From NCBI RefSeq assembly GCF_000407185.1, contig NZ_KE136484.1, forward strand, positions 124,001-188,000: 64,000 bases of DNA, in the 5' to 3' direction. Below the pieces are notes generated by a model. The model was not told the DNA's origin. It did no database searches and saw nothing but the letters and a program-made list of their open reading frames with translations. The position numbers and the translations under genes are program-made. The stretch is from Enterococcus malodoratus ATCC 43197 (GTDB taxonomy: Bacteria; Bacillota; Bacilli; Lactobacillales; Enterococcaceae). This document shows, piece by piece, positions 6,610 through 48,171 of the stretch. The first letter of the stretch is position 1, and each line of letters starts with the position of its first letter.

Positions 6610-8329
6610 GTCCAACCGCTCCCTTCATTTGCTGATTTTCTTCGGTGAAGTAGGCATTGAAGTAATCCGAAGTTTGTTCCAACTCCCGTGGTGTCCCAGA
6701 CTCAACGATCGCGCCATCTTTGAAGACATAGACCTGATCGGCATTTAGAACATTATACAGACGATGAGAAACGAAAATCACGATCGTTGTTTTGGCTAAT
6801 GTTTTGAGTGTGTCCAAGATGATCTCTTCACTTTCGATATCGACACCTGAAGTGATCTCGTCGAAAAGATAGAGTTCAGCTGAAGCAGCCAACGCCCGAG
6901 CTAAAATCAGCCGCTGCCGTTGTCCGCCAGATAGATTTTTACCGTTTTCTTCTAAGACGGTGTCCAGTCGTTCCGGTAATTGCTCTACGAACGCCGTTAA
7001 TTTTACTCGGTCTAGCAAATGCCACAGCTCCTCATCACTCAGAGTTGGGTTCGCTAGTCGCAGATTCTCTCGAATACTTTCGCCATAAAGAAAATCTTTC
7101 GTGTTGACTAGAATCCCTTTATTAAGAATCACTGAACGGCTCAGTTCGGTTAGATCGGTTTGATTCCAGCGAATCGTTCCCTGGTAATCATCCAATTGAT
7201 TCAAAAGTAATTGGGCAAAGGTGCTTTTACCTGAGCCGGATTTTCCGACAAAGGCGGTAAAGGTTCCTTTTTCCAAGTGCATCGAAACCTGTTGGATTGC
7301 GGGGGGCTGCTGGTTTTCATAGGTGAAGTCCAGCTGATCGACCGTGATCGTTTGCAGAGATTCATGCCATGAGCGGATCGTTCCGTCGCTTTTTTCGGGT
7401 AGTGCCAAATAATCAAAAATCTTCCCGCAGGAGCTGATTCCATTCATCGCTACATGGAAGAGGGAACCCAGCTGACGCATCGGCAAGAAAAATTCTGCGC
7501 TGACTAAAATGAAGATCAGCACACCATAAATAGTCAGCTGTTGATGTTGAAAAGCGATCAGCGCCAGCCCCATTCCGAGTGCTGCGCCGCTATAAGAAAA
7601 GATATCCATGATCGTAATTGAATTCAGCTGCATCGACAATAAGCTCATCGTCGCTTTGCGGAATTTTTGCGCATCGGCGGCTAATTCTTGTTGTTTCGCC
7701 TCATCCTGATCATAAGCTTTCAAGACACTTAGAGCACTCAAGCTTTCATGGAAACGAGTTCCTAGATTTGTGTATTGATCCCAATACTTACTTAAGATCC
7801 GCTTAGCGATCTTCATCACCATCATGATAGTCAGTGGAATGAACGGCACACAGATCAGCATCGCTACGGCAGGCTGCCAAGCAAGGGAGACTAAATAGCC
7901 GAATAAAAGCAACGAAGCCACTAGACAGTAAAAAAGCTGCGGCAGAAAATGCGCATAATACATTTCCAGCTGTTCGATTCCATCGCCGGAAAGCTGCGCC
8001 AAAGTCGTTGCTGGTAATTGTCGAGAAGTATTTCCCAGCCGAAAAGCTTTTTCCATCACTTTCGTTCGCAGTGCGACTCGCAGTTCCGCGGAAGCCTGAT
8101 CTGTTAGATGAGCAGATAGACGAATAAGAAACAGTTTTCCTAAGAGAGCTAACAGGATCAAACTAAAAGGCAGACTAAGCTTAAGGTGGATTCCTTCAAT
8201 CAGATTGCTCAATAAGAATGTCAGTATCCGCCAAATGTATAAGGACAGTCCAAGACTGATACAACGAATCACGACCTGTAAGATCAGGGTCTTCTTTTTA
8301 GCGATGGCAAAGAGCCGACGATCAATCAT
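6602..8329 (-). CDS. ABC transporter, fused permease/ATPase (CydD-like half exporter)
   Basis: A 575-aa partner of the following gene: six TM helices, then an ATPase domain with Walker A GKSGSGKST, canonical signature LSGGQRQRLILARAL and Walker B LYLFDEITSGVD, with the H-loop in FVSHR. Intact signature here and a degenerate one in the partner indicate a heterodimer with one standard and one altered ATP site. Start overlaps the ybaN-like stop by 8 bp and the stop overlaps the partner start by 8 bp, so the three genes are translationally coupled. Substrate is not evident; iron regulation is inferred from the shared promoter. Confidence 0.82.
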   Translation of the reverse strand: MIDRRLFAIAKKKTLILQVVIRCISLGLSLYIWRILTFLLSNLIEGIHLKLSLPFSLILLALLGKLFLIRLSAHLTDQASAELRVALRTKVMEKAFRLGNTSRQLPATTLAQLSGDGIEQLEMYYAHFLPQLFYCLVASLLLFGYLVSLAWQPAVAMLICVPFIPLTIMMVMKIAKRILSKYWDQYTNLGTRFHESLSALSVLKAYDQDEAKQQELAADAQKFRKATMSLLSMQLNSITIMDIFSYSGAALGMGLALIAFQHQQLTIYGVLIFILVSAEFFLPMRQLGSLFHVAMNGISSCGKIFDYLALPEKSDGTIRSWHESLQTITVDQLDFTYENQQPPAIQQVSMHLEKGTFTAFVGKSGSGKSTFAQLLLNQLDDYQGTIRWNQTDLTELSRSVILNKGILVNTKDFLYGESIRENLRLANPTLSDEELWHLLDRVKLTAFVEQLPERLDTVLEENGKNLSGGQRQRLILARALAASAELYLFDEITSGVDIESEEIILDTLKTLAKTTIVIFVSHRLYNVLNADQVYVFKDGAIVESGTPRELEQTSDYFNAYFTEENQQMKGAVGHE

Positions 8330-8714
8330 TCGGTTCGCCCGCCTTCACAGACGTCTTTTTCCCTCGCAGATACCAAGTCAATCCAATCACGTGGGCAATG
8401 TAGACGACCACTAAACAAATCCGCATCGGCGTATTATCCACTAAGAGCCCGGGAATCAGAAAGACAACTAAGATCATCAGAAACATCCTCACCATGCCGG
8501 CGTTGGTGATTTTCTTTTTAACGAGGGGTTCTTCCACCGCTCGCTGGTAGAAAGAAGAGTGAATAAATTTGTTGTAATATTTATCAGAACTGCGCAGCCA
8601 AAAGAAGGCTGTCAGCAAATAGAACACCGTTGTTGGTAAAAAAGGCAGAAAAATGCCGATTGTCCCCAGTGCAAATGTAATTGCACCAAGAGAAAAGAAA
8701 ATGATTTTTTTCAC
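8322..8714 (-). CDS. YbaN/DUF454 family small membrane protein
   Basis: 130 aa with about four hydrophobic segments; the motif LGTIGIFLPFLPTTVFYLLTAFFWLRSSDKYY is typical of YbaN (DUF454). I chose the GTG at 8714 because GGAGGT sits 7 bp upstream of it; a longer in-frame ATG at 8729 contains that ribosome site in its own second and third codons. First gene of the Fur-box operon with the two ABC genes. The family's role is unknown, but genomic pairing with transporters and iron control is a useful clue. Confidence 0.82.
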   Translation of the reverse strand: MKKIIFFSLGAITFALGTIGIFLPFLPTTVFYLLTAFFWLRSSDKYYNKFIHSSFYQRAVEEPLVKKKITNAGMVRMFLMILVVFLIPGLLVDNTPMRICLVVVYIAHVIGLTWYLRGKKTSVKAGEPND

Positions 8715-8760
8715 ATGTGTGACCTCCATTAATGAGATAAAAGAAAGAGCTTACCAGCTT

Positions 8761-8789
8761 ATAGTATGATAAATGAAAATGATTATCAA
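8761..8789 (-). promoter_or_regulatory. Sigma-A promoter with embedded Fur box
   Basis: On the minus strand TTGATA (8789-8784), a 17-bp spacer and TACTAT (8766-8761) form a promoter ~45 bp before ybaN. Positions 8774-8788 read TGAAAATGATTATCA, one mismatch from the 7-1-7 Fur consensus TGATAATNATTATCA, so repressor binding would block the -35/-10 interval. Iron-dependent repression of ybaN and the ABC pair is inferred. Confidence 0.75.
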
Positions 8790-8873
8790 TCTCTTTAACG
8801 ATTTCTTTTATCCAAAAAAACGAAAAAAATGACTCCTCCTTTGAGTAACAAGCAATTAGCTTAAAAAAAATCG

Positions 8874-8921
8874 GCGTTTCTTTCTAAAATAGTAGGAATA
8901 GCAAGTAAAGAAACGCTTTTT
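8874..8921. terminator. Hairpin with T-tracts on both strands in a divergent intergenic region
   Basis: Perfect 10-bp stem GCGTTTCTTT / AAAGAAACGC with a 23-nt loop, followed by TTTTT on the plus strand and by eight T on the minus strand. No annotated gene ends here: it lies between the divergent ybaN and capA-like genes (8715-9078). It may end a short untranslated RNA. The rest of this gap holds only the Fur promoter and AT-rich sequence. Confidence 0.4.
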
Positions 8922-9078
8922 AATGATTCTTTTTTTTAACAAAATCAATAAAAAAAGCATTTTAAATAACTATTCCCATCTTCAACAGATTAACGTAAAC
9001 TATTTTGTGTAGAAGAAAATTGAAACGATCTGAAAGCCAATTGTTTGTTGCGAAGTCTAAACGAAGAGGAGTTAGCTT

Positions 9079-10245
9079 GTGAAAACATTTTTTAAAATGA
9101 GCCTGATCATTCTTTTATTTCTCAGTGGGTGTGGGAGTAAAGAACCAGAAAAAAGCACGAAGGATAAAACCTCAAAGACAACTGAAGAAGCATCAAAAGC
9201 AAAAGACGATACTTTAGTGAAACTGAATTTTTCTGCGGTAGGGGATAATTTGATCCATGACTATATTTACGATCATCTTAGGCAGCCAGATGGGACGTAC
9301 CGTTTTGATGAAATGTACGAACCCACAAAGTATCTGAACAAAGACCGAGATGTTTCTTATATTAATCTGGAAACGATTTGTGCCGGGGAAGAATTAGGCC
9401 TATCAGGATATCCTACCTTTAACGGACCAACTCAAGTATTGGATTCTTTGCATACGGCGGGATTCAATTGGCTGTCCGCAGCCAGTAATCATACGATGGA
9501 CAAAGGGGAAGACGGCATCGTTAAGCAGCTCGAATACTTAGAGAAGTATCCCGATATCACGGTAACAGGTTCGCAAAAATCGTCCGAGGCCAAGCGGATT
9601 CATGTGAAGAAAATCAAAGGTGTAAAGGTCGGAATGATTTCCTATACCTTTGGATTGAACGGTATTCCGCTGCCTGAGGGTAAAGAGTATTTAGTCAATC
9701 TGATCGATGAGGAACAGATAAAGCAAGACATGCAGGAATTAAATAAGCAGAGCGATGTTCAAATCGTCAGTATGCATTGGGGCGAAGAATATCAATTTGT
9801 TCCAGATGAAAACCAAACCCAGTTAGCGCAGCTCTTGAGTGACGCAGGGGTGGACGTGATCGTTGGCGGGCATCCTCATGTTATTCAGCCGATGGAGTAT
9901 CTGACCGGTGAGTCTGGGAATCAAACTTTGGTGATGTACTCATTAGGGAATTTCATTTCTTCCCAAGCGGAGAACGATCGGATGCTTGGCGGCATGGGAC
10001 GTTGGACGATCGATTATGATAAAAAGAAGAAGGACGTCAAGTTTGAACAGGTCGAATTTTGGCCGACGATTACTTATATCGGGGATAATTATCAAACCTA
10101 TAAGACATATGCGTTAAAAGATTATACCGATGATTTAGCCAATCAGCATATGATCCATGTCAATCAAGGGCAAGATTTATCACGAGAATACTTTATCCAA
10201 CGAACAAAAGAGATCATGAATGACAAAGTAAAACTCGTCTATTAA
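9079..10245 (+). CDS. CapA-family lipoprotein (PgsA/CapA metallophosphatase fold)
   Basis: 388 aa, GTG start 8-9 bp after GAGGAG. The signal peptide ends in the lipobox LSGC, so the protein is anchored outside the membrane; a charged Lys/Glu-rich linker (~25-50) follows. The calcineurin-like CapA/PGA_cap domain shows AVGDNLIHD, ETICAGEE, SAASNHTMDKGEDG, MHWGEEYQF and GGHPHVIQP, carrying the expected metal-binding Asp, Asn and His. Relatives act in poly-gamma-glutamate or capsule synthesis, but no capB/capC homologues are next to it, so its role as a lone lipoprotein is unclear. Confidence 0.85.
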   Translation: MKTFFKMSLIILLFLSGCGSKEPEKSTKDKTSKTTEEASKAKDDTLVKLNFSAVGDNLIHDYIYDHLRQPDGTYRFDEMYEPTKYLNKDRDVSYINLETICAGEELGLSGYPTFNGPTQVLDSLHTAGFNWLSAASNHTMDKGEDGIVKQLEYLEKYPDITVTGSQKSSEAKRIHVKKIKGVKVGMISYTFGLNGIPLPEGKEYLVNLIDEEQIKQDMQELNKQSDVQIVSMHWGEEYQFVPDENQTQLAQLLSDAGVDVIVGGHPHVIQPMEYLTGESGNQTLVMYSLGNFISSQAENDRMLGGMGRWTIDYDKKKKDVKFEQVEFWPTITYIGDNYQTYKTYALKDYTDDLANQHMIHVNQGQDLSREYFIQRTKEIMNDKVKLVY

Positions 10246-10336
10246 AAAATCGACCAGAAGATAGCAAGTCAAATCAAGCGGCAGCCTTTCTCGCTTCCTA
10301 TAATGAATGTAGGGTAGTCGAAACGGGGGAAACAGA

Positions 10337-11305
10337 ATGTATGAGTGGCAGAAACAGATTCAACAAATCGTGGATGAGATCGATCACTGTATCGAAGGCT
10401 ATAATGATGAGGCCTTGACGTTGCGGCGGCTTTCCCGAAAGATGGGGTATTCCGAATTCTATACGACGCGAAAATTCAAAGAAATTTCCGGCATGCCATT
10501 TCGCGATTATTTGCGTCAACGGAAATTAGCCTTTGCTTTAAAGGAAGTTCGCGACAACGAAAAAAGTTTCTTGGATATTGCTTTTGATTATGGCTTTTCT
10601 TCGCATGAGGCCTTTACCCGCGCATTTAAAAGAATGTACGGAGTCGCGCCTAGTGAGTATCGAAAACAGCCGCGACCAGTCGTCCTTCGTACAAAAATCA
10701 ACCCTTTTGACCGCTACTTTTTAGGATTAGGAGAGATTGGTATGGTGAAATCAACCGAAGATATCAAAACGTATTTTGTTACGATTCCGGCACACAAATT
10801 TTTGCACATCAAAAACAATGAAAGCAATGGGTATTGGGATTTTTGGCAGAAGCAAAGCCAGATTCCTGGGCAAGATTGCGATACGATCAGCGGATTATTG
10901 GATAGTATCAAAGGGAAATTAGATGACAAGGGCGGCAATAAGGCCGATAGCAGCAGTGGTCAAGCAATGGCCTACATCAGTGATCCGGATGGTCGTCTTT
11001 GTGATTGGGGCTTTTTACGATCGGAATGTTATGGTGTACGTTTGCCGATGGATTATCAGGGGGAAGTACCGGAACAAATGATTATGCTAGATGTTCCAGA
11101 AGCCGAATATCTGGTTTTTGAACACGGACCTTTCGATTATGAGCAGGAGAATCGCAGTGTCGAAGAAGAGGTAGAAAAAGCGATGAAGGATTTTGATTTT
11201 TCCGCTACGGACTATCATTACGATACGACACCGGGCCGAGTTATTTATTTCTATCATGATCCAGAACGCTTTTGGAAGTATGTAAGACCAGTAGTGAAAA
11301 AATAA
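10337..11305 (+). CDS. AraC-family regulator with GyrI-like effector domain
   Basis: 322 aa. Residues ~1-110 are an AraC/XylS DNA-binding domain with two helix-turn-helix units (LTLRRLSRKMGYSEFYTTRKFKEISG and FLDIAFDYGFSSHEAFTRAFKRMYGVAPSEYR). The C-terminal ~180 residues are a GyrI-like small-molecule-binding domain ending EYLVFEHGPFDYE and FYHDPERFWKYVRPVVKK. Such proteins respond to lipophilic cations or drugs. GGGGG precedes the ATG. It is monocistronic with its own terminator; its target is not evident. Confidence 0.85.
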   Translation: MYEWQKQIQQIVDEIDHCIEGYNDEALTLRRLSRKMGYSEFYTTRKFKEISGMPFRDYLRQRKLAFALKEVRDNEKSFLDIAFDYGFSSHEAFTRAFKRMYGVAPSEYRKQPRPVVLRTKINPFDRYFLGLGEIGMVKSTEDIKTYFVTIPAHKFLHIKNNESNGYWDFWQKQSQIPGQDCDTISGLLDSIKGKLDDKGGNKADSSSGQAMAYISDPDGRLCDWGFLRSECYGVRLPMDYQGEVPEQMIMLDVPEAEYLVFEHGPFDYEQENRSVEEEVEKAMKDFDFSATDYHYDTTPGRVIYFYHDPERFWKYVRPVVKK

Positions 11306-11308
11306 AAG

Positions 11309-11347
11309 GAACAGCGGTGTTGGTTAAAAACTGACCCGCTGTTTTTA
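11309..11347 (+). terminator. Terminator after the AraC-GyrI gene
   Basis: Stem ACAGCGG / CCGCTGT followed by TTTTTA, directly after the stop codon. Confidence 0.8.
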
Positions 11348-11452
11348 TTGTTAAAAAAATTTTGTTAGGTGTAAACTAACCTTGGATAAAATAAAGAAGC
11401 AGTAAATCTTACGCCCGATTCAGTTTGCGAGCGTCAAAGGAAGTCTAGGAGA

Positions 11453-11800
11453 ATGAAAGCAGCAGAAACAGACCCACGAAAACAGGCACAACAGTTGATC
11501 CACGATTTATACAATCGTTTGATCAAACGGGAAAATCCTCCTGAAACGGTGACGGATATCACCGATGTCTTATTACAAGTCTATCGCAAGCTAGACAATG
11601 AAAAGAATCCAGCGGCCTTGGTCAATCGGTTGGTCAACTACATTTATCGTGTCGGATTTGATAATAAAGTTCATTTTGATAAAGCAGAAGAGCAATTGAT
11701 TATCGACCTCGGAACGATCTCAAATCGTGCCGGATTTAACGGTGTTTACCGCTCTGATGCAGGAAATAAAGCACAGTTTTATAGTGTGTTTGATCGCTAA
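11453..11800 (+). CDS. Bacteriocin immunity protein, enterocin A immunity family
   Basis: A 115-aa soluble helical protein. The pattern (QAQQLIHDLYNRLI..., a long amphipathic middle ending VNRLVNYIYRVGFDNKVHFDKAEEQLIIDLG) matches the four-helix EntA_Immun family, which protects cells by blocking class IIa bacteriocins at the mannose PTS. No bacteriocin structural gene or exporter is near, so it is an orphan immunity gene, common in enterococci. AGGAG lies unusually close to the ATG; AAGGAAG ~10 bp upstream may be the real SD. Confidence 0.75.
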   Translation: MKAAETDPRKQAQQLIHDLYNRLIKRENPPETVTDITDVLLQVYRKLDNEKNPAALVNRLVNYIYRVGFDNKVHFDKAEEQLIIDLGTISNRAGFNGVYRSDAGNKAQFYSVFDR

Positions 11801-11808
11801 TAGTAAAT

Positions 11809-11848
11809 GAAGAAGCTAGTCTGATGTTTGTCAGACTAGCTTCTTTTG
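11809..11848. terminator. Bidirectional terminator
   Basis: 15-bp perfect stem AAGAAGCTAGTCTGA / TCAGACTAGCTTCTT followed by TTTG. It serves the immunity gene and, on the other strand, the convergent aldo/keto reductase. Confidence 0.8.
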
Positions 11849-11896
11849 TTAAAACCGCAACCTAAGTGAGTAGGTTGCGATTAAAACTTCGAATGG

Positions 11897-12739
11897 CTAT
11901 TTTCTGCTCAATGTGCCCTTCAAAAATTCTTCGTCGTTAGGATCACCAGAGCCGCGTTGATTTTTATCAATCGCTGCGATGAGCTTCATTTCTTCGTCGG
12001 TCAAGGTGAAGTCAAAGACATCGATATTTTGCGCGATCCGTTCTGCGTGAACAGATTTTGGAATCACGATGATGTCACGTTGCAAGTGCCAACGCAAGAT
12101 GACTTGAGCGACCGATTTGTTATGTGCTTCAGCGATTTTTGCCAAAGTCGGATCTTCCAACACATTGCTCTTACCTTGGCCAAGTGGCCCCCAAGCTTCA
12201 TGAGCGATATCCATACTCTTCAAATAAGCATGCAGCTCTTTTTGTTGGAAGTACGGGTGTGTTTCAAGCTGGTCGACTGCTGGTTTGATTTTTGCGGTCG
12301 TCATCAATTTTTCGAGATGAGGTTGTTCAAAATTTGAAACCCCGATCGATTTGATCAAGCCGTCATTGTACAAGGTTTCCATTGCTCGCCATTTTTCGTT
12401 ATAGCCTTCGCTTGGCCAGTGGATCAAGTAAAGATCCAAGTAATCTGTCTGCAATTTCTTCAATGATTCGTGGAAAGCCGCGATCGTTTCATCATAGGTC
12501 GTGTTGCTGTTCCAAACTTTTGACGTAATAAATAGATCCTCACGTTTCACATCGCTCTCAGCAAGCGCCTCGCCAAGCCACGCCTCATTGTGATAGATCG
12601 TTGCAGTATCAAAGTGACGATACCCGCTTTTCAATGCATCAGCTACTGAACGTTTCAAATCGTCTGCGTCTTGAACTTTAAAAACGCCTAATCCCAATTG
12701 CGGGATCATTTGACCATTGTTTAATCTCAACTGTTCCAT
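11897..12739 (-). CDS. Aldo/keto reductase (AKR5-like)
   Basis: A 280-aa NADPH-dependent carbonyl reductase with TIM-barrel fold. The catalytic tetrad is visible: Asp and Tyr in HFDTATIYHNE, Lys in FITSKVWNSN, His in LYLIHWPSEGY. NADPH-binding IPKSVHAERIAQNIDVFDF lies near the C-terminus. AGGAGG precedes the ATG. It is a stand-alone gene, convergent with the immunity gene. It resembles, but is distinct from, the MerR-controlled reductase at 22,933. Physiological substrate is unknown. Confidence 0.9.
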   Translation of the reverse strand: MEQLRLNNGQMIPQLGLGVFKVQDADDLKRSVADALKSGYRHFDTATIYHNEAWLGEALAESDVKREDLFITSKVWNSNTTYDETIAAFHESLKKLQTDYLDLYLIHWPSEGYNEKWRAMETLYNDGLIKSIGVSNFEQPHLEKLMTTAKIKPAVDQLETHPYFQQKELHAYLKSMDIAHEAWGPLGQGKSNVLEDPTLAKIAEAHNKSVAQVILRWHLQRDIIVIPKSVHAERIAQNIDVFDFTLTDEEMKLIAAIDKNQRGSGDPNDEEFLKGTLSRK

Positions 12740-36894: not shown

Positions 36895-37686
36895 ATGAAT
36901 AAGAAGAAATTAGTAACGGGTTTATTGAGCACAGCACTTTTGGGCAGCATCTTGGTTACTACTGCATCACCGGCAGAAGCAACAGATTATAAGGGACAGT
37001 CGAATGGGTCAATAAAGTTTAAGTCAGGAGGATTAGTTACTCCTCCGATTGATCCACCAATTGTTCCACCGGTTACTCCGCCAACTGGTGATTTTGGTTT
37101 GTTATATGTACCGAAAGAATTTAACTTCGCGGAAACAGCAGTACCAACAAGTGTTGTTACGACAGATACAATCATTCCGATTGATACGAACTGGGAAGGC
37201 ACTCCGGCCAGCAACACAGGCGGGACGGGCGGCACCAATACTGCAACGAAACATTTTGCGGTTGGAGATGTTCGTGGGACACGTGCTTCTGGTTGGAGAT
37301 TGGAAGCGAAATTAACGGGCGATTTAGCGGTTAGCGCGAGTAAAAAATTAGATGGGGCAACAATTACAATGACTCAAGGGATCAATAAGTTGACACCCGC
37401 AACACCGCCAACGAATCCATGGACATCAACACCAACATCTCTTAGTTTTGATGCGCACACACCAGATAGTATGACTACATCAGTAGAATTGAAAAAAGCA
37501 AGTACGTTAATTATGAGCGCCTCTGGAGAAACGAATCCTGGCGATGCGGATGGTCGTGGGGAGGGCTATTGGCAAGGAGAATTTACCACTATCAACTTAA
37601 AGATTCCAGCAATACCAATGAACAAAGTAGCTGCAGGTGAACAGTATACGGGTACAATTGACTGGACATTAACCGATTCGATTTAA
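36895..37686 (+). CDS. WxL-domain cell-surface protein
   Basis: 263 aa. Signal peptide with cleavage near ASPAEA (~30). A Pro-rich linker (PPIDPPIVPPVTPPTG) separates the N-terminus from the WxL domain, whose two hallmark motifs are GWRLEAKL and, at the C-terminus, TIDWTLTDSI; the segment VGDVRGTRASGWRL is diagnostic. WxL proteins bind peptidoglycan non-covalently and assemble with DUF916 and LPxTG partners, which follow directly. AAGGAG precedes the ATG. First gene of surface cluster 1. Confidence 0.93.
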   Translation: MNKKKLVTGLLSTALLGSILVTTASPAEATDYKGQSNGSIKFKSGGLVTPPIDPPIVPPVTPPTGDFGLLYVPKEFNFAETAVPTSVVTTDTIIPIDTNWEGTPASNTGGTGGTNTATKHFAVGDVRGTRASGWRLEAKLTGDLAVSASKKLDGATITMTQGINKLTPATPPTNPWTSTPTSLSFDAHTPDSMTTSVELKKASTLIMSASGETNPGDADGRGEGYWQGEFTTINLKIPAIPMNKVAAGEQYTGTIDWTLTDSI

Positions 37687-37760
37687 AATAGATTAGACAG
37701 AAAAAATAGGTTGAAGATGAGCCAATTATTTTCAACCTATTTCTATTAAGAGGAGTCCGG

Positions 37761-38831
37761 ATGAAACAGACGAAAGTTATCATATGTCTCTTGCTAGGTG
37801 CATTGACCTTTTTCGGTGGAACCGCTTATGCCGAGAAGACGAGTGAAACGCAAGGAATGACTGAAAATGAGAAACGAGCAGGCTTTACCGTTCAGGGTGT
37901 TCTACCTGAAAACCAGATCAATGATCGAATCAGTTTCTATCATTTGTTGGTTCAACCGGGAGCAGCACAAACGGTTGAAGTCAAGATTTTCAATAGTTCT
38001 GCGGAGAAACAAACCTATAAAGTAGAGGTCATTCGAGCAGCGACCAACAAAAATGGGTTGATCACCTACGATGAACGAGACAAGCCAGCCGATAAAAGTA
38101 TGAAGCTGCCGATTACAGAGATTACTAAACCTAAAAATAAGGAAGTCAGTGTGGAGGCCTATTCGGAAGGCAAAGCCGAGATTGACATAAATGTTCCTGC
38201 TGAACCGTTTTCCGGCATCACTTTGGGAGGTATCCGCATTTCATTGAAAGATGAAAAAGAAGACGAAGCGGATCAAGGTATGTCAGTGAAAAACACCTAT
38301 GGGTACGCGATCGGGATGATTTTGACAGAGGATGCGAATACGCCGATTTATGGAGAAACGGAGTTGAAATTGTCTTCATTAAAACCGGAAGTTGATTATG
38401 GCAGTAAGGTTCTTGAAGCATTGATCCAAAATCCTCATCCTGAAGCAATGGAGAATTTAGAAGCGGAAGGGAAAATCACCAAAAAGGGCAGCGATAAAGT
38501 AATTGCGAAGCATGCCGTCAAACCGGTCAAAATAGCGCCGAACTCGATCTTTCCTTTTCAAATTGATTGGGGAATGCAAGAGGTCGCAGCAGGTGATTAT
38601 ACCTTCACTGGGAAAATCAAAGGGGAAACAAAAAGCTGGGATTTCAAAGAGGATTTCACCATCACCAGAGAAATGGCGAAGAAGATGAATAAACAAACAG
38701 CCTTTCGCGTGTTTATCCCTGAATGGTGGACGAAGACATTCTATGGCGTGCTGGTAGTGACTGTGATTCTGGTGCTGTTCTTAATGTTACGTCTCATCAA
38801 GCGAAAGAAAGCGAAGGAGGGAGACGAGTGA
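37761..38831 (+). CDS. DUF916/DUF3324 WxL-interacting membrane protein
   Basis: 356 aa. Signal peptide (residues 1-24, ending AYA), DUF916 domain (GFTVQGVLPENQINDRISFYHLLVQPGAAQTVEVKIFN), DUF3324 domain (~170-315: NTYGYAIGMILTEDANTP...), then a C-terminal TM helix (~326-346) and basic tail. These proteins bind host matrix and peptidoglycan and recruit WxL proteins. SD AAGAGGAG. Stop overlaps the GTG of the next gene by four bases. Confidence 0.92.
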   Translation: MKQTKVIICLLLGALTFFGGTAYAEKTSETQGMTENEKRAGFTVQGVLPENQINDRISFYHLLVQPGAAQTVEVKIFNSSAEKQTYKVEVIRAATNKNGLITYDERDKPADKSMKLPITEITKPKNKEVSVEAYSEGKAEIDINVPAEPFSGITLGGIRISLKDEKEDEADQGMSVKNTYGYAIGMILTEDANTPIYGETELKLSSLKPEVDYGSKVLEALIQNPHPEAMENLEAEGKITKKGSDKVIAKHAVKPVKIAPNSIFPFQIDWGMQEVAAGDYTFTGKIKGETKSWDFKEDFTITREMAKKMNKQTAFRVFIPEWWTKTFYGVLVVTVILVLFLMLRLIKRKKAKEGDE

Positions 38832-39259
38832 AGAAAAAAATCGGGTTTTATGTAGCCGCCGTACTATTTTGCCTAAGTGTCAGCTGTGCGTCGGTATTAG
38901 CAGCAAGTCATGAAGGACAATCACCAGTTGGTGTCGGATTTTATGATCCCACTAGTACAAGCAGTTCGACCGAACCAACAACTAGCACGACAACTTCAAC
39001 TACTAGTTCAAGTAGCACCAGTCCTACAACAGATTCAAGCTCCACTGTCGAATCTAGTAGGAAAGGGCAAGTCTTACCGGTAACAAATACTAGAGCTGGA
39101 AGCAGTGGCGGAGGCTATTGGGATTATATTACCGATACTGCCAGAAAAGTCTTACCGCAAACAGGAGAATTTATCAGTAAGAATATTGCTCTGCTAGGTA
39201 TGGGAATGGTTATCCTTGTTTTCTTCTATTTGAGAAAGAATAGGAGGAAGAAGGTATGA
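38828..39259 (+). CDS. LPxTG-anchored small surface protein
   Basis: 143 aa, GTG start at 38,828 in a GTGA overlap with the previous stop; SD GAAGGAGGG. Signal peptide, then a Ser/Thr-rich stalk (~40-78), a short GSSGGGYWDYI segment and the sortase signal LPQTGE followed by a hydrophobic helix and RKNRRKKV. Typical third gene of WxL loci, giving a covalently anchored partner for the complex. Confidence 0.9.
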   Translation: MKKKIGFYVAAVLFCLSVSCASVLAASHEGQSPVGVGFYDPTSTSSSTEPTTSTTTSTTSSSSTSPTTDSSSTVESSRKGQVLPVTNTRAGSSGGGYWDYITDTARKVLPQTGEFISKNIALLGMGMVILVFFYLRKNRRKKV

Positions 39260-39975
39260 AGATGTTAAAAGAATGGGGTTTGAAGATTGGTTTTTTAATT
39301 TTGATTTCAAGTATTATAGGAATTGCGCAAGAAGTACAGGCAGCTCCGCGCATCCCCTTCAACGAGCATGTTGGTATTGAATTTGATATTAAAAAATATG
39401 ACGGGACACCATATAAAGATGCACAAGTACTAGTAGATCTTAAGGAGGAGTCTAGTAAGCCAACCGTGGTAAATAATTTTTTGGAGATAGGTGGGGTATC
39501 TACAAAAGATGTTTTGATAACTTCAACAAATGGCCACTATGTTCATAATTATGGGTTATTTGACATGGGATCCGTATTTTATTATCCTCCCGTTTGGACT
39601 GATCATAGTTTCCACTATGCTTATTATACAAACCTTCGTTTATTACCAGGAAGGCATATTAAGAAACTCGAAGTAGGCGATTATTATTATCTGATAAAGA
39701 CTTGGTATTATGATAAATCATATAACTATACTAAATTTGTCGATAATGATAGAGTTTTGAACTCCCCTTCACAAAAAATTGTTTCTCTAGCTAATGGGGC
39801 ATTCCTTTATAAAGATGAGAATCTTTTGACAGGGTACCATGATCGTCCGCAAGTTGAATTCGGGGGTATTTCGATGAGTACTTGGCGAGATGAATCTAAT
39901 ACTTATCAAAATACATCAACAGATACCTTTGGTCGAAATATCTCCTTTATCGTAACTCCCTGTCAAGGGCCATAA
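39256..39975 (+). pseudogene. Secreted surface protein of WxL cluster 1, truncated by IS insertion
   Basis: Starts in an ATGA overlap with the LPxTG gene. Signal peptide ends near VQAAP (~30); the mature part is Tyr-rich and beta-like (SVFYYPPVW, DHSFHYAYYTNLRLLPG, YYYLIKTWYYDKSYNYT). Native codons end at 39,960 after IVTP; the last residues CQGP and the stop are read from the IS left end. The original C-terminus, probably much longer in such clusters, is missing. The 5' part would still be made and exported. Confidence 0.8.
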
Positions 39976-42097: not shown

Positions 42098-42352
42098 CTA
42101 CATTTTATCGTGGCCCTTTACAGCATTGGATTTAAGCTCCGATCGAATTTGAATGATTCCGGTCTTTTCAATTAGGATAAACTTCTCAATATTTTGATAT
42201 TCAACAAAATGCTGATTAATCGTTGAAATCGTCTCTTTTACAGCTCTTTTAGAAATAGATAGATTTTGTGAAATCTCATCAGTAGAGGTTTCACTTTTGT
42301 TTATTACATAAAATAACACCATTAATTCTCTTTTTAAATAATTTGATAACAA
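42098..42352 (-). pseudogene. Mga-like regulator, N-terminal fragment cut by the IS
   Basis: A TTG start at 42,352 follows GGGAG by ~8 bp; an upstream in-frame ATG (42,379) is also possible. The fragment LSNYLKRELMVLFYVINKSETSTDEISQNLSISKRAVKETISTINQHF is the HTH of Mga/PRD-type regulators, which often flank WxL clusters. Native sequence stops at 42,123 after KSNA; VKGHDKM is IS-encoded. Full proteins are ~480-500 aa, so the regulator is lost. It is divergent from surface cluster 2 and was probably its controller. Confidence 0.72.
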
Positions 42353-42460
42353 CCAACCCTCTCCCTTCATCAAATACAATTATTGTATATCGTTGTACAA
42401 AAACTCTAGATAGCTAGTACTCCTTATCCCATGGTAACATACAGTTATTGATGTGAGTAT

Positions 42461-42684: not shown

Positions 42685-43200
42685 ATGGAAAACGGATCTA
42701 TTAGAGAGCAGAAGAGTAGAAAAAAAATCATACTATTTCTCATTCTGATTTTGCTCGTAGTAGTAGGATTCCTTCTATATAAAAACATGTATAGAAGTCC
42801 GAGTGCGATGGTATCTACAGATGTACCAAGTGGAGAATTTGCAAAAAAACTATCAAGCAGTGAATTAGAAAAGTATCTTCAAGACAAGGCTGACAAGAAC
42901 TATATGCGAATTCAAATGAATCCTACGATGATTTTGGATACTAAAGGTGACTTGTCTTTAAAGATTGTAAACTCGCCTAAAAATATGTATTCAGTGAGAG
43001 TCATTACTTCTATTGAAGGTGTCGACGGTAAGATATATGATTCAGGAATTATTCAACCTGGAGAATATGTAGAACAAGGAAGATTAAGTAAAAAAGTTGA
43101 TAAAGGAATTAATAAAACTATAAGTAAGGTTATGTATTACAACGACAAACAAGCCTTAATTGGTCAAAGTAATGTAAAGGGACAACTATCCGTTTCTTAA
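42685..43200 (+). CDS. Membrane-anchored extracellular protein of surface cluster 2 (171 aa)
   Basis: A basic N-terminus followed by one TM helix (~15-35, IILFLILILLVVVGFLL), then an extracellular beta-rich domain (YMRIQMNPTMILDTKGDLSLKIVNSP, VRVITSIEGVDGKIYDSGIIQPGEYVEQG, ISKVMYYNDKQALIGQ). No lipobox. No family recognised, but similar single-pass proteins open other WxL-type loci. AAAGGAGGAG lies ~13 bp before the ATG. Confidence 0.6.
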   Translation: MENGSIREQKSRKKIILFLILILLVVVGFLLYKNMYRSPSAMVSTDVPSGEFAKKLSSSELEKYLQDKADKNYMRIQMNPTMILDTKGDLSLKIVNSPKNMYSVRVITSIEGVDGKIYDSGIIQPGEYVEQGRLSKKVDKGINKTISKVMYYNDKQALIGQSNVKGQLSVS

Positions 43201-43248
43201 TAAGTGATAGTGCCGATAGATATTCATTTAAAAATTGGAGGAAGAAAA

Positions 43249-43866
43249 ATGAAAATTACGAAAATTTCTGGATTTGTAGCATATGCTGCGTTAGGTTTAT
43301 CACTGGTGTCATTAAGTGGAATAGATGCCTATGCTTGGACTGGCGGGGCAGAAGACCCCAATACTGTGTACGATCAGGTGACTGAAACTGAAGAAGCGAC
43401 TGTTTCGGCAAATGGTGAATTTAAACAATTTGATCCTACAGATCCGGAAGGTCCAGATCCAGAAGAGCCAACGGATTGGATTGATGTTATGGTTCCAACG
43501 TCAACCGATTTTGCTCAGACAGATGCTACTCCTAATGGTATTGTTGCGCCACTTTATAAAGTTACGAATAATTCCGCAAAAGGAGTAAAAATTTCGGTAA
43601 AAGATTTTCAAGATACTAACACAGCAGAGTCTGCTAAAGTCCCAGAATTAGGATTAAAAATTGAGAATAAAGCGGCAGGTATTTCAATTCCAGTTGTTGA
43701 GCAAGGAAAACCGATAGCTGCTGTGACTGAATTGGCAACAATAACTAAAAAAGGTGATGCAATGACCTTTACTTATTCTGGAAATGTGGGAGCTGGGTTT
43801 CAGTTTTCAGATGTAGCCGTAAAACCTATTTACAGCTTAGTTTTGCAATTAGAAACAATCAACTAG
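43249..43866 (+). CDS. WxL-like surface protein lacking the WxL motif (205 aa)
   Basis: ATG at 43,249, 5 bp after GGAGGAA (a longer GTG reading would contain this SD). Signal peptide ends near DAYA (~26). An acidic Pro/Asp/Glu linker (FDPTDPEGPDPEEP) precedes a beta-sandwich domain that opens IDVMVPTSTDFAQTDATPNG and YKVTNNSAKGVKISVKD. That opening matches the C-terminal domain of the 1316-aa protein (DITVPTQTEFIGLD, YKITNNSSVELGVAIKE). Layout resembles WxL proteins, but no Trp-x-Leu pair is present. Confidence 0.65.
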   Translation: MKITKISGFVAYAALGLSLVSLSGIDAYAWTGGAEDPNTVYDQVTETEEATVSANGEFKQFDPTDPEGPDPEEPTDWIDVMVPTSTDFAQTDATPNGIVAPLYKVTNNSAKGVKISVKDFQDTNTAESAKVPELGLKIENKAAGISIPVVEQGKPIAAVTELATITKKGDAMTFTYSGNVGAGFQFSDVAVKPIYSLVLQLETIN

Positions 43867-43876
43867 AGTGATTTGT

Positions 43877-44224
43877 ATGAAAAAATATGGGCTTTTACTT
43901 CTGCTTCTTCTATTAGCAGGTGGTCCTTTATCACCTGTAATCGGCTTTGCCGAAATGGAAGAAGCAGTTATACCAACTGAAGGTCATTTTGTTAAAGAAT
44001 TAGAAGAAAAGGAGATAAATGATTCTGCTATATCGGCTCATAAAGCGGTAGATAAGGAAAAGACGGACAGGATCAAATTACCTAAATTAAACGATAAAAA
44101 CTATCTTGAAATATCTTTCTTAGGATTGCTCTCTTTATTGTTTTTTTGTCTGCTTGTTATGGGGAAAGGCCATGTTTCATCGAAGAAAACTGAAAGTCGA
44201 AAGTTAGAGAGGTGTAAGAAGTGA
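43877..44224 (+). CDS. Small surface protein with degenerate LPxTG-type signal (115 aa)
   Basis: ATG at 43,877 after GAGTG. N-terminal signal peptide (LLLLLLLLAGG, cleaved near GFA). The C-terminus has sortase-signal geometry: LPKLNDKNYLEIS, hydrophobic helix (SFLGLLSLLFFCLLVMG) and a basic tail, but the TG of LPKTG is LN. Sortase A cleavage is therefore doubtful, leaving a membrane-anchored protein. Stop overlaps the next GTG by four bases. Equivalent in position to the LPxTG gene of cluster 1. Confidence 0.65.
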   Translation: MKKYGLLLLLLLLAGGPLSPVIGFAEMEEAVIPTEGHFVKELEEKEINDSAISAHKAVDKEKTDRIKLPKLNDKNYLEISFLGLLSLLFFCLLVMGKGHVSSKKTESRKLERCKK

Positions 44225-47200
44225 AAAATAGTTTTCGAATTTTTCTGATTTTTGCACTAATAGTTCAATCAATGAATTTTTCTCCGATTATTTTTGCTGA
44301 AAGTACTATGGATTCCGTACAAGGTGATGTAGAAATGGCTAGTACAGAATCTAGTGTGGCAAACTCAATAGTGGAATCTGAACCAGAGGAAGAAAAATTA
44401 TTGGATGCGGTCCCTGAAGAAGAGCCGGAAACAGAAATTATCGAGAGACAGGATACTCTTGATAGAGCGGAAGAGTATGCCTTACCACTACTAGTCGCTC
44501 CAAAAGAAGCTTCTTTTTTATTGGGTACAAACATAGATGAAATTAATCTAAAAGATTTTATTAAAGCGGTTCGATACGATGATCAAGTATTAACTGAAGA
44601 TAAATATGAAGTAGAGCTGTTAAACTCTATTCAGACATCAAGTGTAGTTACCCATACTGCCAAACTTCGTGTCTATTTAATAGCAGACCCAACAATTGAT
44701 GCGATTACTTATGCAAATGTAAAAATAAAATGGGGCGATACAATAGCAATGGGCGGAGTGGAGACTTATGTTAATCGAACTACAGCGGCCTTTTCGGTAC
44801 ATCCGGGGATTTCAAAGTTTATCACTGCTGCAAGAGGAAATAGGTATGAACAAAATCAAATTAATAAGAAATTTGCAGGAGAAAAATATTATAGTTTTGA
44901 TTGGTTTGACCTTAGCTCAACAAACGCCCTTCATTTAAAATCTTCTCTAAATGGTGACCAGCACATGGAAGCAAATGGAGATGAAATTGATGATGAGGCT
45001 CTGAAGAAGTGGACGACGCAGCCTGTAAATAATGGGGACATTGTTCGTGCGTGGATAGCGGAAAAGAAACTATATTTACTCGGAAATGGTCAGGAGCAGT
45101 TAACGAAAGACGACACAGCTGACAATTATTATGAAATCACGGATCAAGGATTTAAACAATTGAATATTAATCAACTGATACCTGTTAAACAACGCATTGA
45201 TTACGGACTCAGTACAGCCGAGTTAGATAAAAATGTGTCTAAGTATTTAGATACAAGTGAGTATGGAAATATGGAGGTTAAGCGATTTATCAACTATCCA
45301 AATACTCATGTATCAGGTGATACCAGCGGGATTATCCAAGTTGAAGAAACTACAGAAAATGGAAAGAAAATAACTTATGATTATACCATTCCCTTTACGG
45401 TGATGGAGCCCTCTATCATTGCAAAGGGAAAAAATGGTACCACTCTTTTAGGGAGCATGATCGATCAACTAAATTGGACTGATTTTGTTCAAGACGTCCA
45501 ATTAGGTGATGAAGCACTTACTCCAGATAAGTACACCGTTACTTCACAAAATCAAGTAAGTTTGGATACAGTTGGTAAAAAAACGGCAAATCTTCGTGTA
45601 GCATTAAAAAGCAATCCATCGAATTTTATTGATGTTGAATCTATTATCGAAGTAAAATGGGGAAGCACAATAGCAATGGGGGGAGTTGAGTTTTTCCCTG
45701 ACCGCACAACAGCCGCTTTTACCTTACACCCAGGTTCATCCAAAGTAATAACAGCCTCGGGTGGAAATACTGATGAAAACAAGGTTATCCATAATCATTT
45801 TGGAAATGAAAAATATTATAGTTTTGACTGGTTCAATATGAAACGACTGGGCGAGATACACTTGAAGCCCACCAAAAATGGCGATCAGCATATTGAAGCA
45901 ACTGGGGACGAGCTCATGCAAGACGCATTGAAAAGATGGACGACACAGCCTGTAAATAATGGGGACATTGTTCGTGCGTGGATAGCAGAAAGGAAACTAT
46001 ACTTTATAGGAAATGACCAGCAACAGTTAACGAAAGAAGACACTGCTGACAACTACTATGAAGTTACAGACCTAGGGTTTAAACAATTGAAAATCAATCG
46101 ACTGATACCTGATAAACAAACCATTGTTTACGGACTCAGCCCAAGTGAGTTAGATAAAAATGTGTCTAAGTATTTAGATACAAGCGAGTATGAAAATCTA
46201 AAAGTTAAGAAATTTGTCAGACATCCAAATACCTCTGTAATCGGTGATACCAGTGGTGTCATTCAAGTCGAAGAAACAACTGAAAATGGAAAAAAATTGA
46301 CTTATGATTATACAATTCCTTTTACAGTGGAGCATCCTATCATTGCAAAAGAAAAAAATGGTACAACTCTTTTAGGGAGCACAGTGGATCAACTAAATTT
46401 AACTGATTTTGTTCAAGACGTCCAATTAGGTGGTGGAGCACTTACTCCAGATAAATACATCGTTACTCTACAAAAACCAGTAGACTTAGATACAGTTGGT
46501 AAAAAAACGGCAAACCTTCGTGTAGCATTAAAAAGCAATCCATCGAATTATATCGATATTGAATCTATTATCGAAGTAAAATGGGGCAGCACAATAGCAA
46601 TGGGAGGAATCGATTTTTTTTCTAACCGCACAACAGCCGCTTTTACCTTACACCCAGGTTCATCCAAAGTAATAACAGCCTCGGGTGGAAATACTGATGA
46701 AAACAAGGTTATCCATAATCATTTTGAAAATGAAAAATATTATAGTTTTGATTGGTTCGATATGAAGCGCACGAGCGAGTTACATTTGGAGCTAAATAAA
46801 AATGGGAACCAGCATATTGAAGCCACTGGAGATGAGTTCATGCAGGAAGCTTTAAAAAGGTGGACTAGACAGCCTGTAAATAATGGAGATATCGTTCATG
46901 CATGGACAGCAGAAAAAAAACAATACTATACTGAAAATGAGTCTCTAAAAAAAGTAGAAGCTGACAACTACTATGAAATTACCGATCAAGGATTCAAACT
47001 ATTGAATTTTAATAAAATAGCTCTCAAGAAACACACGATTGATTATAAGACTAGCCTAAGTGAATTAGATAAAAATATCAGGAAGTACTTGGATACGGAG
47101 CAGTATGATAGTCTAGAGGTAAAAAAATTCATTGAATATCCCGATACGAGTAAACAAGGGGATGCGAAAGGGATCATTCAGGTAGAAGAGACGACTGACC

Positions 47201-48171
47201 ACGGGAAAAAACTAACATATGATTATACAGTACATTTTCTGGTAGATTCACCGAAAGCTGCGACTGCTGATGCGGTGACACAGATTATTGATATGAATGG
47301 TTCTTTACCTGATGCGATGAAAGTATTGACGAATATTCAGTATGACGGAGATAAAAGTGAGCTAACAGCAAAATATAGTAAAAATCCAGATACCTCAGTA
47401 ATGGGCCCCGCAACAGCTGTGGCAGAGTTAAGCACGCCAGAGGGCAAGAAAACAAGCATTACGATACCTGTGTTTATTAAGGATGAAAATACAGTGGTAA
47501 AAGATGATTACGCGATTCAAGCAGCCGGATTTACGATGTTTGTCGGTGAGATCAAAAAGGCGGAGTCATCTAGCACTCTAAATGAGATCATTATGGATAA
47601 AAGCCTTGCTAAAGCATGGAATATTCATACTGGCTCAGTGGAGACGAAAAATCTAAAAATATCGAAAAATGATATCCTAGCTAATCCTGGTACGTATAAA
47701 GTTGCATTCACAATTGGGAAGACGGTAAAGGAAATCGAGGTAAATGTTTTATTAGATAGTGAGCTAGTTGATATAACAGTTCCTACGCAGACAGAATTTA
47801 TCGGACTTGATGTAGATAAAGGAAAGGTAAAATCGCCCAAGTATAAGATTACCAATAATTCTTCTGTTGAACTTGGAGTTGCGATAAAAGAAATTAAGGT
47901 GCGCTCGAATTCCTCACAAATGAAGTTGTTGAAGGAACCTGATCCTGATCCAATAGAGAAGGAGAATTCCGCGAAGCTGGCATTAAGTCATTCAAAAGAA
48001 TCTAAAGACATAACGTTGGATATGATAGACTCAGCGCCCAATAAAACTGTTTTTTCGCTACCTCCTTCAGAGCAGGGAACATTTGATATAGCTGGAAAAT
48101 ATTTTGGAGATTTTTCTACTTCGAAACAATTGAAATTTGATTTTGTTTATTCTTTCGATATATTGTTTTAA
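44221..48171 (+). CDS. Giant repeat surface protein with C-terminal WxL-like domain (1316 aa)
   Basis: GTG start, GAGGTG 6 bp upstream, in a GTGA overlap with the preceding gene. Signal peptide (~1-27), an acidic low-complexity stretch (~30-85), three ~309-aa repeats (from ~100 to ~1005), a linker of Ig-like strands, and a C-terminal domain (~1180-1316) that starts DITVPTQTEF and aligns with the 43,249 protein. Each repeat has LLGSxxDQLNxTDFVQDV, GSTIAMGG, YSFDW and YDYTIPFTV. No LPxTG or TM at the C-terminus; wall binding would need the WxL-like domain. Probably an adhesin; not a family I recognise in full. Confidence 0.72.
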   Translation: MKNSFRIFLIFALIVQSMNFSPIIFAESTMDSVQGDVEMASTESSVANSIVESEPEEEKLLDAVPEEEPETEIIERQDTLDRAEEYALPLLVAPKEASFLLGTNIDEINLKDFIKAVRYDDQVLTEDKYEVELLNSIQTSSVVTHTAKLRVYLIADPTIDAITYANVKIKWGDTIAMGGVETYVNRTTAAFSVHPGISKFITAARGNRYEQNQINKKFAGEKYYSFDWFDLSSTNALHLKSSLNGDQHMEANGDEIDDEALKKWTTQPVNNGDIVRAWIAEKKLYLLGNGQEQLTKDDTADNYYEITDQGFKQLNINQLIPVKQRIDYGLSTAELDKNVSKYLDTSEYGNMEVKRFINYPNTHVSGDTSGIIQVEETTENGKKITYDYTIPFTVMEPSIIAKGKNGTTLLGSMIDQLNWTDFVQDVQLGDEALTPDKYTVTSQNQVSLDTVGKKTANLRVALKSNPSNFIDVESIIEVKWGSTIAMGGVEFFPDRTTAAFTLHPGSSKVITASGGNTDENKVIHNHFGNEKYYSFDWFNMKRLGEIHLKPTKNGDQHIEATGDELMQDALKRWTTQPVNNGDIVRAWIAERKLYFIGNDQQQLTKEDTADNYYEVTDLGFKQLKINRLIPDKQTIVYGLSPSELDKNVSKYLDTSEYENLKVKKFVRHPNTSVIGDTSGVIQVEETTENGKKLTYDYTIPFTVEHPIIAKEKNGTTLLGSTVDQLNLTDFVQDVQLGGGALTPDKYIVTLQKPVDLDTVGKKTANLRVALKSNPSNYIDIESIIEVKWGSTIAMGGIDFFSNRTTAAFTLHPGSSKVITASGGNTDENKVIHNHFENEKYYSFDWFDMKRTSELHLELNKNGNQHIEATGDEFMQEALKRWTRQPVNNGDIVHAWTAEKKQYYTENESLKKVEADNYYEITDQGFKLLNFNKIALKKHTIDYKTSLSELDKNIRKYLDTEQYDSLEVKKFIEYPDTSKQGDAKGIIQVEETTDHGKKLTYDYTVHFLVDSPKAATADAVTQIIDMNGSLPDAMKVLTNIQYDGDKSELTAKYSKNPDTSVMGPATAVAELSTPEGKKTSITIPVFIKDENTVVKDDYAIQAAGFTMFVGEIKKAESSSTLNEIIMDKSLAKAWNIHTGSVETKNLKISKNDILANPGTYKVAFTIGKTVKEIEVNVLLDSELVDITVPTQTEFIGLDVDKGKVKSPKYKITNNSSVELGVAIKEIKVRSNSSQMKLLKEPDPDPIEKENSAKLALSHSKESKDITLDMIDSAPNKTVFSLPPSEQGTFDIAGKYFGDFSTSKQLKFDFVYSFDILF
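44518..47240 (+). repeat. Three ~0.93-kb coding repeats in the giant surface protein
   Basis: Units start near 44,518, 45,448 and 46,372. Units 2 and 3 share long identical blocks (for example around 45,580-45,800 and 46,500-46,730), showing recent duplication or gene conversion; unit 1 is more divergent. All three contain GGV/I(D/E)...TTAAF and the KYYSFDWF motif. Confidence 0.85.

Follow-up and report, generated by a model that had tools for sequence, protein, structure and literature searches.

What kind of surface system is encoded by a set of four adjacent genes that resembles a WxL cluster in its parts, and how might its products hold together? The window, by which we mean the whole 64,000-nucleotide stretch of DNA analyzed here, is part of a 4.6-Mb Enterococcaceae genome. 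Four of its open reading frames on the + strand (42685-43200, 43204-43866, 43868-44224 and 44221-48171 in the ORF list of the stretch) had been proposed as coupled genes of a divergent WxL-like wall-binding system. The coupling is borne out: the genes, here called g1 to g4, are real and operon-like, and the set recurs widely, across genera. The new observation of this analysis, judged from sequence, is that g3 opens with the strand-like segment found at the N-terminus of g2. We consider it probable that g1-g4 specify a self-contained surface-protein complex that has the parts list of the WxL (Csc) system, draws on other protein families, and is joined by strand complementation. The features of the locus are as follows.

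42685..43200, + strand: g1, 171 aa, N-terminally membrane-anchored, ectodomain of about 130 aa
42727-42780, + strand: hydrophobic stretch of g1, residues 15-32
43249..43866, + strand: g2, small secreted domain protein; its reading frame is open from 43204
43390..43437, + strand: strand-like N-terminal segment of g2, EEATVSANGEFKQFDP
43477..43863, + strand: core domain of g2, beginning at WIDVMVPT
43877..44224, + strand: g3, small sorting-signal protein; ORF open from 43868
43958..44005, + strand: segment of g3 resembling the g2 strand, located at the mature N-terminus, EEAVIPTEGHFVKELE; p 0.02 in the window locus
44078..44092, + strand: LPKLN sorting-signal-like motif in g3
44221..48171, + strand: g4, 1316-aa large surface protein
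44500..45414, + strand: repeat 1 of g4
45415..46329, + strand: repeat 2 of g4
46330..47253, + strand: repeat 3 of g4
47278..47484, + strand: Rib-like module in the stalk of g4 (PF08428 at E 3.7e-4, under the cut-off)
47755..48159, + strand: core domain at the C-terminus of g4, a homolog of the g2 core that lacks the strand segment
48220..48252, + strand: terminator-like stem-loop 3′ of g4; such sites are no more numerous in the region than expected by chance
42123..42379, − strand: probably what is left of the 5′ part of a divergent Mga-type regulator gene; ORF 42098-42379 enters the IS end

The first protein carries the expected transmembrane anchor: positive charge comes first at its N-terminus, followed by the hydrophobic stretch and then by the ectodomain. 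For g2 we prefer the start at 43249, because the methionine at this position (Met16) is invariant in all 32 aligned sequences, the window copy included, and a ribosome-binding site, GGAGGAAG, precedes it. The start of g3 was chosen by comparison with relatives, and the GTG start of g4 overlaps the g3 stop. The large protein has the three repeats that had been described, each of about 305 aa and with identities of 53-72%. The domain said to be common to the small protein and the end of the large one was recovered as well, since a profile built from small proteins only finds g4 residues 1179-1313 as homologous to g2 (E 7e-13).

The original prediction had proposed a co-occurrence analysis, and the four genes do occur together elsewhere. 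In profile searches of 105 Enterococcaceae genomes, g2 was found in 63 and g1 in 66; every one of the 63 g2-positive genomes also has g1, and g1 occurs without g2 in three, two of which are borderline. The g1 profile has matches in 71 of 395 Lactobacillales genomes, six of which are to be discounted, their match being confined to roughly the first 70 profile positions, where the hydrophobic part lies, and in 9 of 398 Bacillota genomes, the window's own included; the relatives in other Bacillota are distant. Listeria, Vagococcus and Lactococcus all have relatives. Carrier species are, among others, Enterococcus pallens, gallinarum, mundtii, raffinosus, canis, caccae and moraviensis, and outside that genus Vagococcus bubulae, Lactococcus chungangensis and Lactococcus raffinolactis.

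Gene maps of 102 loci reduced to 85 distinct g1 genes. Of these, 75 lie no more than 3 kb from a small g2 gene and 74 are next to a secreted protein of at least 450 aa; 51 have a large protein with a detected g2 domain, and 43 a sorting-signal protein by a strict filter; all four parts are present by that filter, which missed short g3 proteins, in 30. The ten g1 genes without g2 comprise one at a contig end, five in Listeria (L183-L187, labeled by the genus group of the genome) and four in other Lactobacillales, and nine of the ten have another small protein beside g1. When large proteins were sought with the small-only g2 profile, 46 were matched (43 distinct, as near copies are included), with the match at the C-terminus in 44. 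The pair g1 and g2 is the steady core of the system, and the recurrence of the set across genera is beyond chance.

Several loci depart from the common layout. Large proteins of 989-1456 aa that end in the g2 core domain occur at L084, L085 and L111; the 15-19 kb examined around them contain neither g1 nor a small g2 gene. A g1 and g2 pair lies at 166-1423 of L113, on a 10-kb mobilizable plasmid of Leuconostoc mesenteroides, with no g3 or large protein nearby in the 7.7 of 10.2 kb examined. At the distant Bacillota loci L212, L215, L216 and L218 a g1 relative stands beside another small secreted protein, with no recognized g3 or large partner, and L215 and L216 have in common a gene of about 250 aa a little upstream. 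A search of plasmids with g1 returned two records, and one with g2 gave no matches. The set is annotated in an E. gilvus plasmid record as three hypothetical proteins and one LPXTG protein, and both annotated records examined list g1 and g2 as hypothetical proteins.

Scans with Pfam and NCBIfam of 33 g1 and 32 g2 sequences gave no fitting family for either protein, and no family matched more than one of the 32 g2 sequences. The commonest matches of g1 were CD1107-like, in 6 of the 33 sequences with a best E of 0.002, and lnt, in 5 with a best E of 7e-7; both were set aside as presumably reflecting the hydrophobic N-terminus, the match positions being those of the window protein only. When PDB sequences were searched with the g2 profile, Vip3 chains were matched weakly (E 3e-4 to 2e-3), and Pfam Vip3A_N touches one of the 32 g2 sequences (E 0.024); we take these matches as chance.

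The proposed kinship with WxL proteins fared unevenly. As the original prediction stated, Trp-x-Leu is missing: there is no W-x-L in the window g2, in g4 after residue 1080, or in the last 150 aa of any of the 63 g2 proteins. The description of g2 and the end of g4 as a WxL-like sandwich found no counterpart in the searches, as PF13731 (WxL) matches neither protein in the window and none of the 32 g2 sequences in Pfam, and profile-profile comparison (hhalign) of g2 with WxL gave 0.3%. For g1, there was no match to PF06030 (DUF916) or PF11797, and the hhalign match to WxLIP, the membrane protein of WxL clusters, covers the hydrophobic stretch only. The cluster itself contains no DUF916, as predicted. 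A WxLIP profile was found in three of 116 loci, each time near its own WxL gene: in the window on the other side of an IS21 element, at L148 about 4.5 kb away and beside its WxL gene, and at L224 adjoining its WxL gene. The term divergent WxL is not supported as a statement of sequence homology, either of g2 to WxL or of g1 to DUF916. By sequence comparison, g1-g4 are built from families that are unrelated to, or unrecognizably distant from, those of WxL; a distant common origin of g1 and g2 with the WxL system is neither shown nor excluded by such comparisons. L224 is of separate note, in that a distant g1 and a small partner (7466-11428) lie directly beside WxL and WxLIP genes.

In the window, a classical WxL cluster lies at 36895-39259, with PF13731, a WxLIP (PF06030 and PF11797) and an LPQTG protein. 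It is separated from g1-g4 by the IS21-type element (IstB PF01695, rve/Mu transposase), which ends at 39961 and 42122; a target duplication at these ends was looked for and none was found, and ORFs on both flanks run into them. The ORF on the g1 side matches HTH_Mga below cut-off (E 2.2e-4) and is matched by one of five regulators of relatives (E 1.3e-4). In six of seven neighbors tested (L075-L080) a Mga-type regulator gene is divergent from g1, and in those six it is full length, at about 500-540 aa. This IS21 copy has probably cut a likely Mga-type regulator gene, leaving only its start here. Since the regulator is probably reduced to its start, the window copy of g1-g4 may be silent or wrongly regulated. 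At L072, an LRR protein gene (10624-12150) stands where relatives have the Mga-type regulator.

The sorting signal of g3 had been called degenerate. The motif is there, as LPKLN followed by a hydrophobic stretch and a Lys/Arg tail, and the protein is matched by the NCBIfam model NF053819 (EF0750_LPXTG) at E 7.8e-7 and 29.6 bits, below the cut-off of 47 bits. Degenerate is not the right word, as the family at large uses a relaxed signal. LPxT[GNSA] occurs in 23 of 63 g3 proteins, and in 29 the first residue of the motif is F, Y or H, not L (the motif groups overlap slightly; the last match was counted, and one mis-picked string, in L081, was corrected by eye). LPKLN is no one-off, because leucine stands at position 4 in ten of the 63 (LPKLN, LPQLG, LPKLG and others), the window included and one of them doubtful (L151). 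From these motifs, a relaxed, putative sorting signal is a trait of the whole g3 family.

The central observation concerns the other end of g3. Following a signal peptide or at the very N-terminus, g3 opens with a stretch resembling the g2 N-terminal extension, the pair in the window being EEAVIPTEGHFVKELE in g3 and EEATVSANGEFKQFDP in g2. We scored 63 distinct g2-g3 pairs, leaving out g2 genes without a recognizable g3 neighbor, with a profile of the other g2 proteins from which the own g2 and near-identical segments were removed. The segment was found in g3 at p<=0.05 against own shuffles in 47 pairs and missed this threshold in 16, compared with 10 of 277 other small ORFs of the loci that reach it. 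The best match lies at the mature N-terminus in 61 of 63 g3 proteins; in 29 the segment is already reached in the first residues, and no signal peptide is apparent ahead of it. Seven distant-type loci gave no significant sharing of the segment (p 0.05-0.77). Among short g3 proteins, those of L106, L159, L144 and others have 71-86 aa, no apparent signal peptide, and the segment first.

The segment has the alternating hydrophobic character known from N-terminal segments of donor-strand fibers. Around its central glycine, g2 is hydrophobic at −4 (63 of 63), −2 (86%) and +2 (63 of 63), with polar residues between. The 53 profile-picked g3 segments with this glycine are hydrophobic at −4 and +2 in 98%, a figure that the picking favors. 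Segments of g2 and g3 from one locus also resemble each other more than shuffled pairs do (20.2 versus 16.7, p 0.0002, 34 clusters, with pairs at p>0.2 or with g2 at least 60% identical left out), a likeness that may partly reflect shared ancestry.

The large proteins of the g4 kind nearly all lack the segment. In 37 of 43 the match to the g2 profile starts at position 60 or later of 203, behind the segment, and a search for the segment itself gave six of 43 at p<=0.05, four of these on the core. The match starts before the segment in the large proteins of L082, L098, L192 and L198, and the segment itself was not found there. As a possible third carrier, g1 was considered and rejected, with two of 33 at p<=0.05.

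Do classical WxL clusters follow the same arrangement? In 40 classical loci, the N-terminal segment of the small WxL proteins, which reads Y-x-S-N-G-x-x-x-F, was found at p<=0.05 in 16 of 31 small LPxTG proteins and in 5 of 95 control ORFs; in a smaller WxL set it was found in 6 of 12. A loose pattern fits 25 of the 31, a count that has no control. Matching within a locus is weakly above that of shuffled pairs (p 0.009, 21 pairs), the own score exceeding the mean of others in 11 of 21. The EF0750_LPXTG model also matches several small WxL proteins at their N-termini, with the signal peptide inside the match. The g2/g3 and WxL segments do not match each other: cross-tests gave 2 of 63 and, in the smaller WxL set, 0 of 12. 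Among large classical WxL proteins the segment reached p<=0.05 in 2 of 6, and in 0 of 3 of another set, numbers too few to judge absence. On these comparisons, both systems follow one rule, in which the small LPxTG or sorting-signal protein bears the N-terminal segment of the small partner, with different sequences in each. In this sense the earlier view of a system parallel to classical WxL complexes is supported, by the parts list, by the recurrence of the set and by the N-terminal sharing seen in both systems.

Strand complementation is our probable explanation for the g1-g4 complex. The core domain of g2 and g4 would be an incomplete beta sandwich. A strand of WxLIP has been modeled as filling a gap in the WxL sandwich (PMC10599100, section 2.4, 2023), and it is this published model together with the shared segment that leads us to propose strand complementation for both systems. 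In the order of assembly that we infer, g1 would be the membrane partner, receiving the core domain at the membrane as WxLIP is modeled to do for WxL. A tethered donor, g3, would be anchored through its sorting-like signal, in wall or membrane, while its strand docks a g2. Being both donor and acceptor, g2 would pass its own strand to the next g2 or to the end of g4, and g4 would be an acceptor-only adhesin whose repeats are projected as the adhesive tip. A role in adhesion is suggested by modules in some large relatives: four of nine scanned have Pfam matches (mucin/carbohydrate-binding, Rib, Ig-like and InlB repeats were among the modules seen), the other five having no Pfam module. The large protein of L106 has a pectate-lyase-like adhesive domain and that of L183 has LRR/DUF285.

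Three other readings were weighed. One takes g1-g4 as a divergent branch of true WxL: g2 and the g4 end would be WxL domains from which both W-x-L motifs have disappeared, and g1 a DUF916 protein that has become smaller and inverted. This reading is compatible with strand complementation. The identical parts list and the shared-segment rule speak for it, as do a comparison of the g1 and WxLIP ectodomains (hhalign, 62 columns, 23% identity, probability 11%) and the g2 blocks ITNNSGRPV and YTLTLKF, which recall the two WxL blocks by eye only. Given the 0.3% for g2 and WxL, the absence of PF13731 from g2, g4 and all 32 g2 sequences, and a membrane topology of g1 that appears from its sequence to be opposite, we regard such a descent as doubtful. 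It is also unlikely, in our estimate, that the shared IxVxGxLG segment is a recognition tag by which g1 or a secretion or wall factor gathers g2 and g3, with g4 joining through its core. Such a tag would fit the presence of g1 in every g2 genome, the pairing of g1 and g2 without g3 or g4 nearby in L113, and the placement of the segment at the mature N-terminus in 61 of 63 g3 proteins; however, g4 has to join without the segment, alternating hydrophobic residues around a central glycine form an edge-strand pattern, and the published model for WxLIP and WxL is one of strand insertion.

The third reading, that g3 is a former copy of g2 which has lost the core and kept the first strand without a present role, would account for the similar N-terminal segments of two neighboring genes that share an orientation. 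Against it, the segment is kept while the rest of g3 looks unalignable by eye, its −4 and +2 positions are hydrophobic in 98% of the 53 picked segments (with the picking favoring that pattern), it persists in g3 proteins without a signal peptide, and a like arrangement of other sequence is found in WxL clusters. We therefore rate a relic as very improbable.

Strand complementation, if correct, would give these observations a wider meaning. The g1-g4 system is common in Enterococcaceae, with g1 in 66 of 105 genomes, yet has had no name. The g3 copy of the first strand of g2 hints at how such surface kits may assemble, and the shared segment suggests a possible role for the puzzling small LPxTG protein of WxL clusters. 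The anchoring of WxL-type adhesins to the wall would become a question of peptide binding. Among the matches listed in our literature search, which covered a minority of subscription journals, there was no description of the g1-g4 gene set.

Among known systems, the closest in layout are the WxL/Csc (cscABCD) clusters, described for Enterococcus, Listeria and Lactococcus (PMC1534035, PMC9772566, PMC10599100). They likewise consist of a membrane protein, a small protein of the domain only, a large protein ended by the same domain, and a small LPxTG protein; members of this last group were described as too unlike one another to be aligned (PMC1534035). Unlike them, g1-g4 have no WxL domain, W-x-L or DUF916/DUF3324, and g1 is half the size of their membrane protein and is anchored at the N-terminus. 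The published definition of a WxL cluster demands a WxLIP (DUF916 and DUF3324). Measured against it, g1-g4 have the C-terminal domain common to small and large protein and the small LPxTG protein in the operon, with a relaxed signal, and have no WxLIP. Protein by protein, g1 does not show the combination of PF06030, PF11797, signal peptide and C-terminal TM that marks a WxLIP, g2 and g4 do not show the PF13731 match with two W-x-L motifs, and g3 stays below the EF0750_LPXTG cut-off. The Listeria loci L183-L187, which we take to be lmo0549-type, are like the window in having a g1 relative, a small secreted protein and an adjoining small LPKAG protein, and L183, the one scanned, has a large LRR (DUF285) protein; they are unlike it in that the g2 profile does not detect their small protein.

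A donor-strand assembly with a partner chaperone is described for Gram-positive bacteria in TasA-TapA of Bacillus subtilis (PMC9674648 and PMC10151520). The likeness to g1-g4 is drawn from descriptions. TasA-TapA fibers are not known to have a large adhesin or a sorting-signal partner. In chaperone-usher pili, the subunit consists of an N-terminal donor strand and an incomplete domain, and the tip adhesin of a binding part and an incomplete domain without a donor strand; these pili are Gram-negative and require an usher. No chaperone-usher family appeared in the Pfam scans of g2, and in the arrangement proposed here, unlike in those pili, a sorting-signal protein would bear a donor strand. We tentatively suggest, as a possibility that falls somewhat short of probable, that WxL clusters and g1-g4, though unrelated by sequence, share strand complementation as their way of assembly. 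The set would then be a four-gene Gram-positive counterpart of the chaperone-usher system, in which the donor strand of the sorting-signal protein would fasten the subunits to the wall, together with a tip adhesin that is donor-less.
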